From assembly GCA_902542165.1 (NCBI GenBank), contig CACBTF010000003.1:1-48953 (forward strand): a stretch of 48,953 bases of DNA, given 5' to 3'. The stretch is from an uncultured Pelagibacteraceae bacterium (lineage in GTDB: Bacteria > Pseudomonadota > Alphaproteobacteria > Pelagibacterales > Pelagibacteraceae). The notes beneath the pieces were generated by a model. The model did not search any database. It saw nothing but the letters and a program-made list of their open reading frames with translations, and was not told where the DNA came from. Numbering within the stretch: the stretch's first letter is position 1; every line of letters starts with the position of its first letter. Both the position numbers and the translations under genes were made by a program. Positions 24,316 through 48,953 of this stretch are shown piece after piece.

Positions 24316-25320
24316 TTAATATTCTCTATAAAATTTTATTAGTTTATTTACTTTAACCGGGTTTGTTTCTGGTAACATACCATGTCCTAGATTAAAAACA
24401 TAAGGCAAACCTTTAAATGCGTCTAAATATTTTCTAGCATTATTGTAAATGTCCTCATCGGACGATAATAAAATTTTTGGATCTAGCCCACCTTGAATTA
24501 CCGTGTCTTTAAGATTTTCTTTAGCCCACATAGGATCAATATTGTAATCTATATTTAACCCGTTAGGTTTTACTAAATTATTAAAATCTTTGTAGTTTTC
24601 TTTTATACCCCTTGGAAAACAAATTACAGGTATATCTTTCTTTTTACAAAACTCTACGATTTTGGAGTTTGGTGTGTAACAAAAACTATTAAGATCTTCT
24701 TGTGGTAACAAACCAGCCCAAGAATCAAAAACTTGGACCACATCAGCTCCAGCGTTAATTTGATTATCTATATGTAAACAAAGATAATTTATTAATTTTT
24801 CCAGTACTAAGCTAATTTCATCTTTTTTCTTGTTAATTAACTTTAAATCAATTTCTTTTTTACTCAATTTGGCTCCAAGCATGTATACTAATAATGTCCA
24901 CGGAGCCCCTATAAAAGATATTAATGATTTTTCTTTATTTAATCTTTTTCTAGTAATTTCTATTGCCTTATAAACTGGTTTAAGTTTTTCAATAAAATCA
25001 ATATCGTTATTTTTTAAAAATTTATTAAGATTAAAGTTTTCTAACTTTGGTCCGTGGTTTTTTAAAAATTCAACTTTTTGATCAAGGGCATAGGGGACTA
25101 TTAATATATCTGAAAAAATTATTGCAGAGTCTAAATCAAACCTTTTTATAGGTTGTAAGGTAATTTCAGAACTTAATTCACTATTCAAACAAAGATTAAT
25201 AAAATTTTTATTTTGAGATCTAATTCTTTGAAATTCAGGTAAATACCGCCCTGCTTGTCTCATAAACCATATTGATTTACAAATCTTTTTATTTATTAAG
25301 ATTTCTTTAAGATTACTCAT
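24316..25320 (-). CDS. hemE: Uroporphyrinogen decarboxylase
   Basis: HemE decarboxylates uroporphyrinogen III to coproporphyrinogen III. The 334-residue TIM barrel contains the diagnostic WFMRQAGRYLPEF near the N-terminus, IIFSDILIVPYAL with the catalytic Asp, VQVFDSWAGLL and a C-terminal FNLGHGMLPETNP with the conserved His. It is the first gene of the hemE-hemH-hemJ-rho leftward unit and borders the candidate replication origin. Confidence 0.97.
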   Translation of the reverse strand: MSNLKEILINKKICKSIWFMRQAGRYLPEFQRIRSQNKNFINLCLNSELSSEITLQPIKRFDLDSAIIFSDILIVPYALDQKVEFLKNHGPKLENFNLNKFLKNNDIDFIEKLKPVYKAIEITRKRLNKEKSLISFIGAPWTLLVYMLGAKLSKKEIDLKLINKKKDEISLVLEKLINYLCLHIDNQINAGADVVQVFDSWAGLLPQEDLNSFCYTPNSKIVEFCKKKDIPVICFPRGIKENYKDFNNLVKPNGLNIDYNIDPMWAKENLKDTVIQGGLDPKILLSSDEDIYNNARKYLDAFKGLPYVFNLGHGMLPETNPVKVNKLIKFYREY

Positions 25321-25591
25321 TAAATAATTAAAAGTTTAAAAACGTAATATAAGCTTTAGGTCCTGTTAGTTAGTTATATAACGATTTATACATTTTTTGT
25401 ACATTAGGTAGTTTATAAGTATTGGCAATAATACTCATTTTAAGTGGTTTATTAGTTTTATAAACATCTAAAAAATCATATTATTAACATTCAATAACAT
25501 GTTTAAATAGTGTTGATTAATGTTAGTAAATTTTTCTAATTTGTTTTTAAGGTGTGTAAAGTAATTTAATTAATATTTTATTTACAAAGTT
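25321..25591. other. Candidate chromosomal replication origin (oriC) region
   Basis: This 271-bp gene-free, very AT-rich gap lies between divergent hemE and ppsR-maf-aroE-coaE-dnaQ, the context of the experimentally known Caulobacter origin (between hemE and the RP001-type gene) and of the Rickettsia one. Degenerate DnaA-box-like nonamers compared with TTATNCACA are TTATAAACA (25458-25466) and TTATTAACA (25481-25489), each with one mismatch, and TTATACATT (25386-25394) with two. No perfect DnaA box and no standard TTAA-N7-TTAA CtrA site was found. The gap must also hold promoters for hemE and ppsR. Confidence 0.7.
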
Positions 25592-26410
25592 ATGAACGAA
25601 AAATACAATGTATATCTTGTGTCTGACTCTACCGGTGAAACTCTAGATAGGATATTTTTATCTTTAAAATCTCAATTTGCTAATTTTGAGTATTATAAAA
25701 AAGAATTTGCATTTATTAGAACTGAACAGCAAATAGACAAAATTATTAAAGAGTGTGCTCTAAATGAAAATTCGATTATTCTATATACAATTGTTGAGTC
25801 AAAGTTAGCCAAATATTTAGCAAACCAAAGTGAAAAAAATTCTGTCCCTTGTTTTGGTGTACTTGGAAATTTAATTTTAAGCTTTTCTAAATTATTAAAT
25901 CAAAAAGCGATACACAAACCTAGCGCTCAACATGTATTAGATGACGATTATTATAAACGTATAGAAGCTATACAATTTACTATGTCACATGATGATGGAA
26001 AAAAAGTTGACGATATTAACAGCGCTGATGTGGTCTTGCTTGGAGTGAGTAGAACAAGCAAAACACCAACCTCAATCTACCTAGCGAATAGAGGATATAA
26101 AACGGTAAATATTCCACTTGTTCTAGATCAAAAAATTCCAGAAGATTTAAAATTTAACTCAACTTCTTGTATAGTTGGACTTGTTGCAGATCCTCAAAGG
26201 CTGTCAGATATAAGACGTAATCGTGTAGCTATAATGAAAGATCAAAATCTGTCAGAATATACAGATTTAGAATCTATAAAAAAGGAGGTAGAAAATTCGA
26301 AAAAATTATTTAAGAAAAATAATTGGCCTATAATAGATGTAACAAGAAGGTCCGTAGAAGAAACTGCTGCATCTATATTAAAAATAATTGAAATAAAAAA
26401 AAATAAATGA
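25592..26410 (+). CDS. ppsR: PEP synthetase/PPDK regulatory protein (kinase/pyrophosphorylase, DUF299)
   Basis: This 272-residue protein is a DUF299 bifunctional regulator that phosphorylates and dephosphorylates PEP synthase or pyruvate phosphate dikinase. The start VYLVSDSTGETLDRI and the P-loop-like GVSRTSKTPTS (151-161) are diagnostic, with a C-terminal NWPIIDVTRRSVEETAA. The target enzyme is not in the window. It is the RP001-type gene beside the origin in other alphaproteobacteria. maf overlaps its end by four bases. Confidence 0.93.
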   Translation: MNEKYNVYLVSDSTGETLDRIFLSLKSQFANFEYYKKEFAFIRTEQQIDKIIKECALNENSIILYTIVESKLAKYLANQSEKNSVPCFGVLGNLILSFSKLLNQKAIHKPSAQHVLDDDYYKRIEAIQFTMSHDDGKKVDDINSADVVLLGVSRTSKTPTSIYLANRGYKTVNIPLVLDQKIPEDLKFNSTSCIVGLVADPQRLSDIRRNRVAIMKDQNLSEYTDLESIKKEVENSKKLFKKNNWPIIDVTRRSVEETAASILKIIEIKKNK

Positions 26411-43774: not shown

Positions 43775-44388
43775 TGCAGGACAATGAAGTAATAAATATT
43801 CTCCTAAATCAACTTAGTTTCAGTTCTAAGAATATATCTGACCTTAAAATATTTAAAAATGAATTGCTAAAGGCCAATAAAAAGCATAATTTTATCTCTA
43901 AAAACACTGAAACCGTTATTTGGCATCGACATATCCTTGACTCAGCCCAAATAGTAAAATTTATCGATTTTTCGAAAGGGTCTTTGTCAGATTTAGGCTC
44001 TGGGGCTGGTTTTCCAGGTTTGATTTTAGCTTTGTTTAACAAAAATAAGAACTTTCACGTGAAATTATATGAAAAATCACCTGTAAAAAGAGCTTTTTTA
44101 AGGAATATAAGTGATAGATTATCTCTTAATATAGAAATCTGTGGTAATATTTACAATGAATCTATCGATACGGATTACATAGTGAGTAGAGCTTTTAAGA
44201 AATTAGAGTCAATAATACAAGTTTCACGTGAAATCGCTAAAAATTCTCATAAATTAATAATTCTAAAAGGTCAAAACGCACAGGGAGATCTAAAAAAAGC
44301 TTTCAATAAGGAAAAATACGATTATAAACTTGAAAATAGCATTACAAATGAAAAATCTAAAATAATTATAGTCGACTTTAAAAAATGA
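43774..44388 (+). CDS. rsmG: 16S rRNA m7G527 methyltransferase RsmG
   Basis: RsmG (GidB) methylates G527 of 16S rRNA with SAM. The 204-residue protein has NFISKNTETVIWHRHILDSAQ, the SAM motif LSDLGSGAGFPGL, and YEKSPVKRAFLRNIS. Two parS-like palindromes lie within its coding sequence. It overlaps parA by four bases and completes the mnmG-rsmG-parAB block. Confidence 0.97.
   Translation: MQDNEVINILLNQLSFSSKNISDLKIFKNELLKANKKHNFISKNTETVIWHRHILDSAQIVKFIDFSKGSLSDLGSGAGFPGLILALFNKNKNFHVKLYEKSPVKRAFLRNISDRLSLNIEICGNIYNESIDTDYIVSRAFKKLESIIQVSREIAKNSHKLIILKGQNAQGDLKKAFNKEKYDYKLENSITNEKSKIIIVDFKK
44051..44066. promoter_or_regulatory. parS-like site 1 (ParB-binding palindrome)
   Basis: A perfect 12-bp palindrome TTTCACGTGAAA (44053-44064) forms the core of the bacterial parS consensus TGTTTCACGTGAAACA. 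The 16-mer differs from the consensus at four flanking positions. It lies inside rsmG, about 330 bp before parA. Confidence 0.75.
44220..44235. promoter_or_regulatory. parS-like site 2 (ParB-binding palindrome)
   Basis: A second TTTCACGTGAAA core (44222-44233), preceded by G so that the 16-mer differs from the parS consensus at only three positions. It lies 169 bp from site 1, also inside rsmG and 150 bp before parA. Two cores in one gene are very unlikely by chance in AT-rich sequence. Confidence 0.82.
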
Positions 44389-45173
44389 CGACAACTATTT
44401 CAGTGATAAATCAAAAGGGTGGAGTAGGGAAAACAACAACGGTAATAAATTTGGCTGCTTCACTGTCCATTATGGGTCTAACAAATCTTGTTATTGATTT
44501 AGATCCACAAGGAAACGCTACAACAGGATTCGGCAAAAGTAATAATGATGAAGAAAAAAATATTTATAATTTATTAATAAAAAAAATTAGTCTTGGTCAG
44601 GTAATACAAAAAACAAACATACAAAATTTAGATATCATAGGATCACATGTAAATCTGTCAGGTTTAGAAGTTGAAACTGCTAGTGACTCTAAGAGAGCAT
44701 TTGTATTAAAAGAAATATTATTTTCAGAAATGTCAGGCATATTAAAAAAGTATGACAATATATTTATAGATTGCCCTCCTTCTTTAAGCTTGCTCACTAT
44801 TATGTCTTTAGTAGCCTCAGACGAATTACTAGTTCCTTTACAAACAGAGTTCTTTGCCTTGGAAGGAATTACACAGTTAGTAAAAACAATAGATAGAATA
44901 AAAGAAAACCTAAATCCAACACTTTCTATAAGAGGAATACTTTTAACTATGTTTGATAAAAGAAATAAACTTTCATCAGAAGTTGATAGAGAAGCAAGAA
45001 ATTATTTTAAAGATAAAGTTTACAAAACAGTCATTCAAAGAAATGTAAGATTGACCGAAGCACCTTCACATGGGTTACCTTGTGTTATTTATGATAAAAG
45101 TTGTGTTGGAAGCAAATCATATTTCAAATTAGCTGAAGAATTTAAAAATAAAAAAAAAGAGAGTGCTGCATGA
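44385..45173 (+). CDS. parA: Chromosome-partitioning ATPase ParA
   Basis: ParA (Soj) is the deviant-Walker ATPase that pulls ParB-parS complexes apart. The 262-residue protein has INQKGGVGKTTTVINLA with the signature Lys (11-18), IDLDPQGNATTGFG, IFIDCPPSLSLLT and ALEGITQL. There is no N-terminal HTH, so it is of the chromosomal type. Coupled to parB by ATGA-like overlap of four bases. Confidence 0.97.
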   Translation: MTTTISVINQKGGVGKTTTVINLAASLSIMGLTNLVIDLDPQGNATTGFGKSNNDEEKNIYNLLIKKISLGQVIQKTNIQNLDIIGSHVNLSGLEVETASDSKRAFVLKEILFSEMSGILKKYDNIFIDCPPSLSLLTIMSLVASDELLVPLQTEFFALEGITQLVKTIDRIKENLNPTLSIRGILLTMFDKRNKLSSEVDREARNYFKDKVYKTVIQRNVRLTEAPSHGLPCVIYDKSCVGSKSYFKLAEEFKNKKKESAA

Positions 45174-46021
45174 GTGGAAAAAAAAAGGGATTAGGTCGAG
45201 GTCTGTCAGCTTTATTTGGAGACGAAAAACCTAAAGATAAACAACAAAACGCAAACGTTGCTAATAGTGTATCGATAAGTGATTTAAGTCGTAATCCCTA
45301 TCAACCAAGACAGCATTTTAGTGAGGAAAAGCTTGAAGAATTGGTTAACTCCATTAAAAAAAATGGGATAATTCAACCTATAGCTGTTCGTCCAATCAAA
45401 AGTGAAAATGGTAAATATGAAATAGTAGCTGGAGAAAGAAGATGGATTGCCGCTCAGAGAGCTGGACTTCATGAAATTCCAGTTAGAATTTTAGATTTAA
45501 GCGATGTAGAGTCCTTAGAAGTTGCTATCGTAGAAAATATTCAAAGAGATGATTTAAATCCTGTAGAGGAAGCTCGTGGTTATAAAAGATTAAATGAAGA
45601 GTTCAAATATGATCATGAAAGCATATCTAAGCTAATGTCGAAAAGCAGAAGTCATATAAGCAATACTTTAAGACTATTAACTTTGCCTAATGATGTAATT
45701 TCTATGCTTGAGGAGGGTACACTAACGTCTGGACAAGCGAGACCTTTAATTGGAATAACTAATGCGTCATCCATTGCTGAGGAAATTGTTGCTAAAAATT
45801 ACAGTGCAAGAAAAGTAGAATATTTGACTAGAAATAAAAAAACTAATTTTAAAGATAAGAAGATCGATTCAAATATTTTGAGAGCGCAAGAAAAAATTGA
45901 AAAAATTTTAGGCCTTAAAGTAAATATTTTAAATAAAAAGAATAATTCAGGTAAAATTGTAATTGAGTATAAAGATTTAGATCAGTTTGAACTTTTATCA
46001 GATTTACTAACTAAGAATTAG
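45170..46021 (+). CDS. parB: Chromosome-partitioning protein ParB
   Basis: ParB (Spo0J) binds parS and spreads as a CTP-dependent clamp. The 283-residue protein starts with GLGRGLSALFG (7-17), has RNPYQPRQHF, IQPIAVRP, the CTP-binding AGERRWIAAQRAG, NIQRDDLNPVEEA, a central HTH (SISKLMSKSRSHISNTLRLL) and a dimerising C-terminus. Its 3' end overlaps convergent holA by 11 bases. It would act on the two sites in rsmG. Confidence 0.97.
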   Translation: MSGKKKGLGRGLSALFGDEKPKDKQQNANVANSVSISDLSRNPYQPRQHFSEEKLEELVNSIKKNGIIQPIAVRPIKSENGKYEIVAGERRWIAAQRAGLHEIPVRILDLSDVESLEVAIVENIQRDDLNPVEEARGYKRLNEEFKYDHESISKLMSKSRSHISNTLRLLTLPNDVISMLEEGTLTSGQARPLIGITNASSIAEEIVAKNYSARKVEYLTRNKKTNFKDKKIDSNILRAQEKIEKILGLKVNILNKKNNSGKIVIEYKDLDQFELLSDLLTKN

Positions 46022-47005
46022 CACTTTCACAAATATCTAGAATTAACTTTTTAATGAGTATGTTTTTACTCACTGAACTGTTGGATTTTATCATTAATTC
46101 TAAATGGTAAGTTTTTTTCAGAATTTCATTTATTTTTGTTGAGTTCCATTTTTTTGCTTGTAACATAAAATTATTCTTATCTTTCCAAAAAATCGGAGGT
46201 TTTAAACTAGTTACGGCTTGCTCGATATTTAAGTTTTTGGCTTTTTTTACCACTTCATTTAATCGATTTAATCTTTGATTTATAAGATTTAAATATAAAA
46301 TATTTTTTTCTGTCTCAAAAAAAAGTTTCATTTAAAAGCTTATTTGTTTTGATTTTATTACCATTTAGAGCCTCTTCTTTAAGAAGATTAAAATCTTCAT
46401 TTATCTTATCGTCAAGCAATTCTTCCAATTTACTTTGATTAATAATTTTGTCCTCAAATAGAGATAGAATTTTATTTAATTCATTATTAAGTTTTACTCT
46501 ATCTAATCCACAATTATCTAAAATCATATTTATATTATTAGCGTTGAGACCTTTAAAATCTTTCAATTTTGTTATTATTATTTTCTTAAGCGTAATTTCA
46601 TTATCCTCGTAACATGCAACAGATGCAAAGTTTTTTGCCTTTTCATAAAAATTTCTCAGTTTAGATTTTCTATCTAAATTTTCTGAAAAAATTATTAGCT
46701 GGTTCTCTTTAATTTTTTCCATAGATGAGTGTAATGTAGTAAAACTTTTGTCAGTTGCTTGATCAATCATTATAATTTTTTTTTCTTCAAATAATGATGT
46801 ATTATTTAACTCTTTTAGAATTAACTCATTATTACTTATAATCTCATCCTGAGTAAAATTTAAAACTAAATTATTTTTATTTAAAACTTTAATTGTATCT
46901 TTAAAAAAATTTTTTTAGTCCTAAGTTTATTCCGTAAAATAAAATTGAATTGTAATGAGCAATTTTCTCTGGTTCATTTTCAAATATGTAGCTTTTAATT
47001 ATCAT
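46011..47005 (-). CDS. holA: DNA polymerase III delta subunit, interrupted by two frameshifts
   Basis: HolA opens the beta clamp during loading. Starting at ATG 47005, the frame reads IIKSYIFENEPEKIAHYNSILFYG and then stops at a T7 tract (46903-46916 on the plus strand is A7T7); removing one base restores FKDTIKVLNKNN and the frame continues to 46315. A second single-base excess in an eight-base A/T run (46317-46324) separates LLNETFF from ETEKNILYLNLINQRL. Repaired, the protein is about 330 residues with typical HolA layout. Both indels sit in homopolymers, so sequencing error is the likely cause; transcript slippage is possible. No intact copy is seen here. Confidence 0.85.
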
Positions 47006-47467
47006 TATTTTTTAAAATTAATTCTTTAATGATTAAATCTGCAATTTCCTTGGCTAAGTTTTTTTCTAGATTATTTTGATTGTTAATTGTTGTAGAATGG
47101 TTATTTGATACATCATAGCTTCCATCGACTGAAAAGTTTAAGTTTCGCTTTGTTCCAGATATTAGGTTATTAATTATAACTGAGGTATTAACTTTAATTT
47201 GATATTTTGTAATTTGGTTACTATCATTTTTTTCTTTTATTCCCTTCTCTTTAGAAGTTTTCAAATTCTCTCGTTTCCTTCATTATTTTTAAATACCTTT
47301 TGAAGATTATTTTTTATTAAGAAATTTAATTTGTTGTCCCCTTCAGTATCAAAGCTTTCTAATTTGAAATTAAAAAGTTGTGATTTATCTAAAACTTTAT
47401 AACCACAACTAATTGTTAATATTAATAAAGCAAATATAGATGCGTAATACTTAAAAAATTTAAACAT
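46995..47467 (-). CDS. lptE: LPS-assembly lipoprotein LptE, interrupted by a frameshift
   Basis: LptE plugs LptD for LPS insertion into the outer membrane. The first part (from ATG 47467) has a lipoprotein signal ending LLILTISC-GYKVL, and the second (after a frame change between 47264 and 47281) continues TSKEKGIKEKNDSNQITKYQIKVNTSVIINN with the family's beta-strand pattern. One extra base near GGAAACGAG would rejoin them. The gap in the frame is a stop in one register and a TGA in the other, so the position is confined. It is located between leuS and holA as in other alphaproteobacteria. Confidence 0.8.
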
Positions 47468-48953
47468 TTTTTACTATGTAATTAATAATTTTATTTTTAA
47501 CAAATATTGTTTTTAAAATTTCATTATTCTCTAAATATTTTTTAGCTTTTGATTGTTTTAATATAAAAATATTGATGTCTTTTTGATCAAGATCTTTTTG
47601 AACTGAAATTACATCTCTTGTTTTACCGTTAATTTGTACAGCCAATTTTATATTCATTGAGACATTTTTTTATCAATTATTGGCCATTTATCAGTTGTAT
47701 TACAATTAAATAATTCTAAGCATTCAAAAGCTAGATGAGGTGTAAATGGCGTCATCAATTTCATAATCTTTATAATACTTTCTTTTAGCACCTCGTTACT
47801 TACTTCTAATTCTATGGCATCTTTCAAAATTTTATAAATTTGATAAAAATAAGCTATAGATACATTAAATCTAAAATCGTTAATAGACTCATCAATTTTA
47901 ATGACAAACTCATTTATCTGTGAAGAAAGTTTTTTTTCATTATCTTTGTTTCGTGTTTTGTTTTTTCTTTTAAAGATCGCGTAATTAAGATTCCAAATTT
48001 TTTGTAAAAATTTATTTGCTGAGTCCACACCAGTACTGGACCATTGTATATCTTTATCAGGCGGACTATCTGATAAAATAAACCATCTAACGGCATCCGC
48101 ACCGTATTGCTTAATCATTACCTCTGGGTCTATAGTATTTTTTTTTGACTTAGACATTGACTCAGGTGGACCAACTGTAACACGGCTTTTGTCAGATTTT
48201 CTTATATAATTTTCACTATTTATTTTTTCAACTTCATCAGGGTAAAGCCAATTTCCCTTTCCATCTTTGTAGGACTCATGACAAACCATACCTTGAGTGA
48301 ATAAGTTTTTAAAAGGTTCAGTAAGTTTAAAATCTTTATTGCATTTTTTTATCCCTTTTGTAAAAAATCTTGAATAAAGTAAGTGTAATATTGCATGTTC
48401 AATTCCACCTATGTATTGGTCGACTGGCATCCAGTAATCAATTTTTTTTTGGTCAAATGGTGAAGTAGAGTAATTTGGTGAGCAAAATCTTAGAAAATAC
48501 CAAGAAGAGTCTACGAATGTATCAAGTGTATCTGTTTCACGCACCGCTTTTTTTCCGCTTGATTTTTGAATAGTGTTTTTCCATTTAGGGTGATTTTCAA
48601 GAGGATTACCATGAGAATTTAGGTCAATGTCATCCGGTAAAACTATTGGTAGCTCACTTTTGTCAACTGGGACAACACTTCCGTCCTCTAAATATATCAT
48701 TGGTATTGGACAACCCCAATATCTCTGTCTTGAAATACCCCAGTCTTTTAGTCTGAATAAAGTCTTTTTTCTTCCAATGTTAAGTTTTTCTATTTCACTG
48801 ATTATTTTATTTTTAGCCTCATTAATATCTAAACCATTTAAAAAATCCGAATTAATGATTTTACCCATCCCCTTATAAGCTTCAATTAATGGCTCATCAC
48901 TTCCATTTGAAACTACTTTTATAATGGGCAAATTATATTTTTTGGCAAAGTCA
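47460..48953 (-). CDS. leuS: Leucyl-tRNA synthetase, 5' truncated at the window edge and frameshifted near its end
   Basis: LeuRS charges tRNA-Leu. The right-hand edge cuts the gene; from there the frame reads [14 protein letters not shown] (end of the editing-domain region), [28 protein letters not shown], and [26 protein letters not shown] (the class I KMSKS motif), then the anticodon-binding domain. It stops after DKKMSQ at an A7 run (T7 at 47665-47671 in the plus strand). With one more A the protein continues into the conserved [17 protein letters not shown]-terminal domain, which is open for 65 more residues to 47460. Confidence 0.93.

Follow-up and report, generated by a model that had tools for sequence, protein, structure and literature searches.

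Does the short gap between the divergently transcribed genes hemE and ppsR serve as the replication origin of an uncultured member of the Pelagibacteraceae? The window, i.e. the whole stretch of 48,953 nucleotides that was analyzed, corresponds to an entire contig of a 638-kb genome that is distributed over 36 contigs and has an estimated completeness of 59.6%. Its ppsR protein exhibits 91% identity to the equivalent of HIMB058, which we take to be a representative of SAR11 subclade II, and 88% to that of AG-313-A04, both of which are Pelagibacteraceae. The gap and its flanks are composed as follows:

24316-25320, minus strand: hemE, left flank (TIGR01464, 317 bits versus a cut-off of 303)
25321-25591: gap, candidate oriC, 271 bp with 19% GC, between divergent hemE and ppsR
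25592-26410, plus strand: ppsR, right flank, COG1806/DUF299 type (NF003742, 317.8 bits versus a cut-off of 225)

A conserved gap between hemE and ppsR

The leftward gene set rho-hemJ-hemH-hemE and the rightward set ppsR-maf-aroE-coaE-dnaQ are both transcribed outward from the gap. The genes hemE, hemH, hemJ, rho, ppsR, aroE, coaE and dnaQ passed their NCBIfam cut-offs, maf was named from model matches below the cut-off and from its position, and ppsR is presumably equivalent to COG1806. The preliminary description had characterized the gap as the largest gene-free stretch of the window, very AT-rich and located at a strand switch with outward-running operons. The strand switch is evident from the position of hemE (minus strand) on the left and ppsR (plus strand) on the right, and the AT-richness from a GC content of 19% versus 22.5-41.5% across the 1-kb windows of the contig. 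Duplex stability is near its minimum at the 271-bp scale, at which 0.2% of the window positions are less stable than the gap; the respective values are 0.9% and 0.5% in the 51-bp and 101-bp scans, and the least stable single spots are located outside the gap. A tRNA is the sole Rfam match over the window. The stretch from 46771 to 47653, which contains no open reading frame of at least 100 amino acids, is longer than the gap, but it holds frames that resemble broken genes, presumably the tail of leuS and lptE, which leaves the gap as the longest stretch devoid of a plausible gene. One frame of this stretch was run against the models and yielded no match. Throughout the contig end (46011-48953), leuS and two genes that we presume to be lptE-like and holA-like are each split over two frames, which suggests frameshift errors in the sequence.

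The comparison of the gap comprised 129 loci, namely 29 same-genus plus 20 other-genus loci retrieved via hemE and 80 retrieved via ppsR alone, with a partial overlap between the sets. The hemE-fetched loci represent ten genera out of the 14 in the family sample, the other four being g8, g9, g11 and g13. Divergent hemE and ppsR genes with a short gap are present in 128 of the 129 loci, including 79 of the 80 in the ppsR-only set; the sole miss (L118) is a contig end, whose sequence begins 58 bases before ppsR. Within the 197 genomes of the family hemE was detected in 166 and ppsR in 162, adjacency being scored in the 129 loci. Removal of six repeated gap sequences resulted in 123 distinct gaps, the window's own included, with a length of 261-297 bp (median 274) and a GC content of 13-25%. 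The mean identity of the gap amounts to 66.5% versus 39.6% at the 4-fold sites of ppsR, and it is higher in all 35 relatives with a ppsR identity of at least about 76%; 17 more of the group of 52 were dropped by the ungapped protein-identity filter. The gap thus evolves more slowly than synonymous sites in each of the 35 comparisons, and the alignments of 25 and 53 gap sequences exhibit islands of near-invariant bases. In genus g9 (G009, G022, G031, G039, G054, G060) the matches range from about 1e-22 to 1e-23 for hemE and from about 1e-91 to 1e-94 for ppsR; hemE may have been replaced or have diverged in this genus.

DnaA-box-like sites and the hemE side of the gap

The following sites of the gap include the three nonamers that had been named at the outset (TTATACATT, TTATAAACA and TTATTAACA), all of which were retrieved:

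25357-25363, plus strand: TAG with a GC-rich spacer (TAGGTCC), putative remnant of a DnaA-trio side with one clean trio
25364-25372, minus strand: weak hemE-side box-like site TGTTAGTTA, TGTT core retained by 98% or more of the 53 same-group sequences
25386-25394, plus strand: tandem box 1, TTATACATT, conserved block TTATACA, part of the 11-bp pair
25397-25405, plus strand: tandem box 2, TTGTACATT, group consensus TTATACAT, recognized by the alignment and the 11-bp pair spacing
25458-25466, plus strand: box-like site TTATAAACA, conserved in the alignment
25481-25489, plus strand: box-like site TTATTAACA, TTATCAACA in several relatives, recognized by the alignment
25511-25519, minus strand: box-like site TAATCAACA, one mismatch to TTATNAACA
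25521-25529, minus strand: box-like site TTACTAACA, one mismatch to TTATNAACA
25578-25586, plus strand: ppsR-proximal box TTATTTACA, group consensus TTATTAACA, recognized by the alignment

The 123 gaps contain TTATNAACA 2.04 times per gap versus 0.15 times in dinucleotide shuffles, corresponding to an about 14-fold enrichment. TTWTNCACA occurs 0.39 times per gap (0.07 shuffled) and in 43 of the 123 gaps, and the perfect box TTATCCACA in four. Both are absent from the window's gap, whose nonamers are degenerate as previously stated. The ranking of all TTATN-4mers with 4mers seen at least ten times is led by TTATNAACA (AACA; 13.6-fold) followed by TTATNCACA (CACA; 8.6-fold), which is in agreement with the proposal that DnaA may read relaxed boxes here. 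The DnaA of this genome, encoded on another contig, retains the RDHTTV motif, which it shares with the solved DnaA 8btg, presumably the protein of B. subtilis. A change of this motif thus does not account for the relaxed boxes. The absence of Hda, considered on the basis of a single PF00308 match per genome in seven genomes, was dismissed, because ten of ten relatives contain Hda-like frames with a length of 186-249 residues, none of which reaches the curated cut-off.

The local density of the boxes was investigated in three single-contig relatives by scanning twenty 20-kb stretches (400 kb) each. In all three, the ~280 bp with the most TTWTNMACA sites (4, 5 and 5; runner-up 3, 3 and 3) coincide at least in part with the gap, which itself contains 4, 4 and 5 of these sites. 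The maximum count within the window is 2 and is reached at the gap, which harbors two of its 20 sites, with ties elsewhere being possible. Moreover, 61 of the 123 gaps carry in their hemE half a same-strand box pair with a spacing of exactly 11 bp, versus 0.5 in the shuffles. The gap could alternatively represent a mere divergent promoter region of hemE and the ppsR operon with the motifs serving as promoter or operator elements, as its location between two divergent operons and the conserved TATAAC (25377-25382), a conceivable promoter part, would permit. This explanation is very improbable, because it accounts neither for nine-base boxes in both orientations and the 11-bp tandem pair nor for the densest box cluster within 400 kb of each of three relatives and the change points of strand asymmetry nearby.

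The hemE side of the gap carries a second type of signal. A TGTNN site is located there in 123 of 123 gaps according to a permissive pattern, and the 30 bases on the hemE side of this box contain 185 TAG and 10 CTA triplets over all gaps (34 and 27 when shuffled). This direction looks like the one expected for DnaA-trios, with 3'-GAT-5' leading leftwards from the box; the exact direction of the B. subtilis box relative to its trios is our assumption. Directional GAT trios beside the box are present at the family level, not for the window alone, whose own trio tract is degraded to one clean trio. DnaA-trios have been described as 3'-GAT-5' repeats next to the box (PMC8287927; PMC6669920). As far as the basal unwinding system (BUS) of Bacillus subtilis and others is portrayed in these sources, the family shares with it the box, the short GC-rich spacer, the 3'-GAT-5' repeats away from the box, and the occurrence of box groups both close to the trios and at a distance from them (PMC8287927, PMC6669920). 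The window differs from the BUS, since its putative hemE-side box has four mismatches to TTATCCACA and is accompanied by one clean trio. A simplified BUS rule is matched by 123 of 123 gaps but also by 95.6 of 123 shuffles, thus being too permissive in AT-rich DNA; the addition of one CTA trio retains 68 gaps versus 25.4 shuffled, and that of two retains 14 versus 1.1. The window's best match to this rule has a low score, lacks a CTA and is located at a site other than the hemE-side box.

For an origin of replication, these elements would fit the following course of initiation. DnaA would bind to an array of the TTATNAACA type that consists of the hemE-side 11-bp tandem pair, the central boxes and the ppsR-proximal box. 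A DnaA filament would grow from the conserved TGTTNN box over the short GC-rich spacer towards hemE and reach the TAG-rich, DnaA-trio-like single strand. The AT-rich DNA would open on the hemE side, and two forks would leave outward.

Partition genes, dnaA and strand asymmetry

The wider surroundings of the gap contain a partition locus:

44220-44235, plus strand: degenerate parS-like palindrome AGTTTCACGTGAAATC with the core TTTCACGTGAAA, 3 mismatches, 0.32 expected by chance
44385-46021, plus strand: parA-parB, ~19 kb from the gap and behind mnmE-mnmG-rsmG (ParB: TIGR00180, 192.8 bits versus 58.45)

ParA was named from matches below the cut-off and its place before parB. The ori domain has been reported to house par operons and most parS sites (PMC7022226). 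The distance of parB to the gap ranges from 9 to 34 kb in eight of eight genomes and from 19 to 34 kb in five genomes of the window's and the sister genus. Together with the conservation in 128 of 129 loci and the box cluster in three relatives, this proximity supports the initial proposal of a probable oriC. Sites resembling parS (at most two mismatches) are located 1.0-1.5 kb before parB in six of the eight genomes and are missing before parB in G177 and G084; at other places in these genomes, such matches are roughly as frequent as those of a reversed-pattern control. The window's site is situated at the end of rsmG, ~150 bp before parA and ~1 kb before the ParB domain. Both parB and dnaA are found on the ppsR side of the gap in G005, G001, G015, G084 and G177, as is parB in G124. 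In genus g4 the hemE side harbors parB and dnaA (G003, G063) or dnaA (G026), and therefore the segment hemE-oriC-ppsR, or its surroundings, is inverted there.

The preliminary description had suggested cumulative GC skew as a check. The skew of the genome itself is unreadable because of its 36 contigs and a completeness of about 60%, and along the window the skew tracks gene orientation. In the relatives, the coarse GC skew to the left and right of the gap is -0.060/+0.064 in G005, -0.026/+0.041 in G003 and -0.057/+0.009 in G063. Change points within 330 kb were determined for four genomes with three measures (4-fold G-C, 2-fold purine G/A, gene orientation), the sampling being denser near the gap. 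With the informative measure picked after seeing the data, they are placed +1 kb from the gap in G177 (4-fold G-C; 85% range -11 to +10), -2 kb in G003 (2-fold purine G/A; -31 to +3), -4 kb in G063 (2-fold purine G/A; -7 to +3) and -13 kb in G005 (2-fold purine G/A; -25 to +5). The check is thus borne out by one measure in each of the four genomes within 13 kb, whereas the eight other tests point elsewhere (G005: +47, -23; G003: -210, -45; G177: +154, +29; G063: -17, +180 kb). The informative measure differs by genus, and one of the three measures per genome lies within 15 kb of the gap. When coarse means per stretch are used for G177, a split at 233-245 kb attains the same score as the gap at 286 kb. 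Genes are biased towards the leading strand, whose share of 4-fold codons is 0.51-0.71 in eight genomes with 0.51 in G001, and the difference in gene orientation is not significant in G177 (p 0.11) and G063 (p 0.14).

In many bacteria oriC adjoins dnaA, which raises the alternative of an origin elsewhere in the region, e.g. at dnaA. This gene is located 61-86 kb from the gap in G005, G003, G063, G026, G084, G177, G015 and G001, and 61-72 kb in the change-point genomes G005, G003, G177 and G063. The record of G005 starts near dnaA, its coarse skew cannot separate dnaA from the gap, and its 4-fold change point at +47 kb could be taken in the same sense. An origin at such a distance is nevertheless hardly credible, given that the relative scores of the informative measures range from 0.89 to 0.96 at the gap and from 0.11 to 0.60 at dnaA (gap/dnaA: G005 0.90/0.60, G003 0.89/0.11, G177 0.96/0.56, G063 0.89/0.16).

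The sense of the asymmetry differs between genera. The leading-strand genes of G005 (z 7.4), G063 (3.5) and, to a weak extent, G003 (1.4) prefer G to A at 2-fold purine sites, which corresponds to the usual sense. The window's genus exhibits no switch of the usual sense in third-position skew. In its representatives G177, G084 and G124 and in those of g2 (G015, G001) the purine difference is small (z -0.3 to 2.2), and the 4-fold sites of the leading strand are C-rich (z -3.8 to -7.0). The 4-fold values elsewhere are -2.1 in G003 (weakly inverted), -0.3 in G063 and -0.1 in G005. If the gap is taken as the origin, the 4-fold G-C skew of the leading-strand genes of G177 is -0.203 versus -0.016. 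The inversion in the five genomes consists of more C plus less G, with the same sign in seven or eight of the eight codon families in each, and the leading strand is richer in A in eight of eight genomes. That the gap of the window's genus is the terminus, for which the terminus polarity of its 4-fold G-C skew would speak, can practically be dismissed in view of parB at 19-34 kb in the five examined genomes of both genera, a pooled gene orientation of origin polarity in three genomes of the window's genus (p 0.006; not clear in G177 or G001), and a box array common to genera of normal polarity.

For the gap as origin, it is conceivable, albeit somewhat doubtful, that replication-linked asymmetry has been rewritten in the window's genus and the sister genus, with C exceeding G at 4-fold sites of the leading relative to the lagging strand and a switch within ~11 kb of oriC in G177, whereas g4 and g5 show the usual purine asymmetry (G003 weakly). 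Codon selection in expressed genes may be an alternative source of the 4-fold inversion. The skew of Candidatus Pelagibacter ubique has already been published as atypical among Alphaproteobacteria (PMC2031905).

Comparison with known origins and consequences

From the comparison of sequences, we consider it very likely that this Pelagibacteraceae genome has its chromosomal oriC in the gap, where initiation would take place. The gap would represent the alphaproteobacterial hemE/COG1806-type origin with a relaxed dialect of DnaA boxes, thus a known kind with new detail. The Rickettsia origin reportedly harbors CtrA and IHF sites, to judge from the title of a study, whereas the window has only one-mismatch matches to both; a perfect CtrA site (TTAA-N7-TTAA) is absent from the window. 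The resemblance of the neighborhood to Caulobacter and Rickettsia, noted at the outset, holds for the flanks hemE and COG1806 of Caulobacter crescentus Cori and of the predicted Rickettsia prowazekii origin, as far as they are described in PMC1914354. Cori is likewise AT-rich, equipped with DnaA boxes and located between hemE and the COG1806 gene (PMC1914354). It differs in that the SAR11 boxes are mostly TTATNAACA, that ctrA has been reported missing in Pelagibacter (PMC2877005), and that GANTC is rare in the SAR11 gaps (5 sites in 123 versus 19.2 shuffled). The length of the predicted R. prowazekii origin is given as over 400 bp (PMC1914354) versus 271 bp here.

The pattern TTAA-N7-TTAA is present in 58 of the 123 gaps versus 29.7 shuffled, even though ctrA is reported as absent from Pelagibacter (PMC2877005), and this excess is perhaps a by-product of TTAA-bearing boxes. 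Strict IHF sites occur in 16 of the 123 gaps (8.7 shuffled), and IHF/HU-like genes, all below the himA cut-off, in ten of ten relatives. Likewise, dif/Xer has been reported missing from Pelagibacter (PMC2731167). Ori-Finder already lists hemE as an indicator gene (PMC2275245). Our literature search, mostly at the level of titles, retrieved no description of a SAR11 origin sequence; DoriC may hold a prediction.

Given the distance of 61-86 kb between dnaA and the gap, a SAR11 genome whose numbering starts at dnaA would have its origin misplaced. In some SAR11 genera, the polarity of the skew can be misleading if used alone. If the rewritten asymmetry is true, it would indicate that replication errors or repair have changed among SAR11 bacteria, and skew-based origin finders would be misled. 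SAR11 bacteria count among the most numerous cells of the ocean, and the estimation of growth rates from metagenomes depends on the correct origin. With its DnaA-box consensus TTATNAACA, the 271-bp candidate origin of a lineage from which ctrA is reportedly absent would provide a simple and testable system of alphaproteobacterial initiation.
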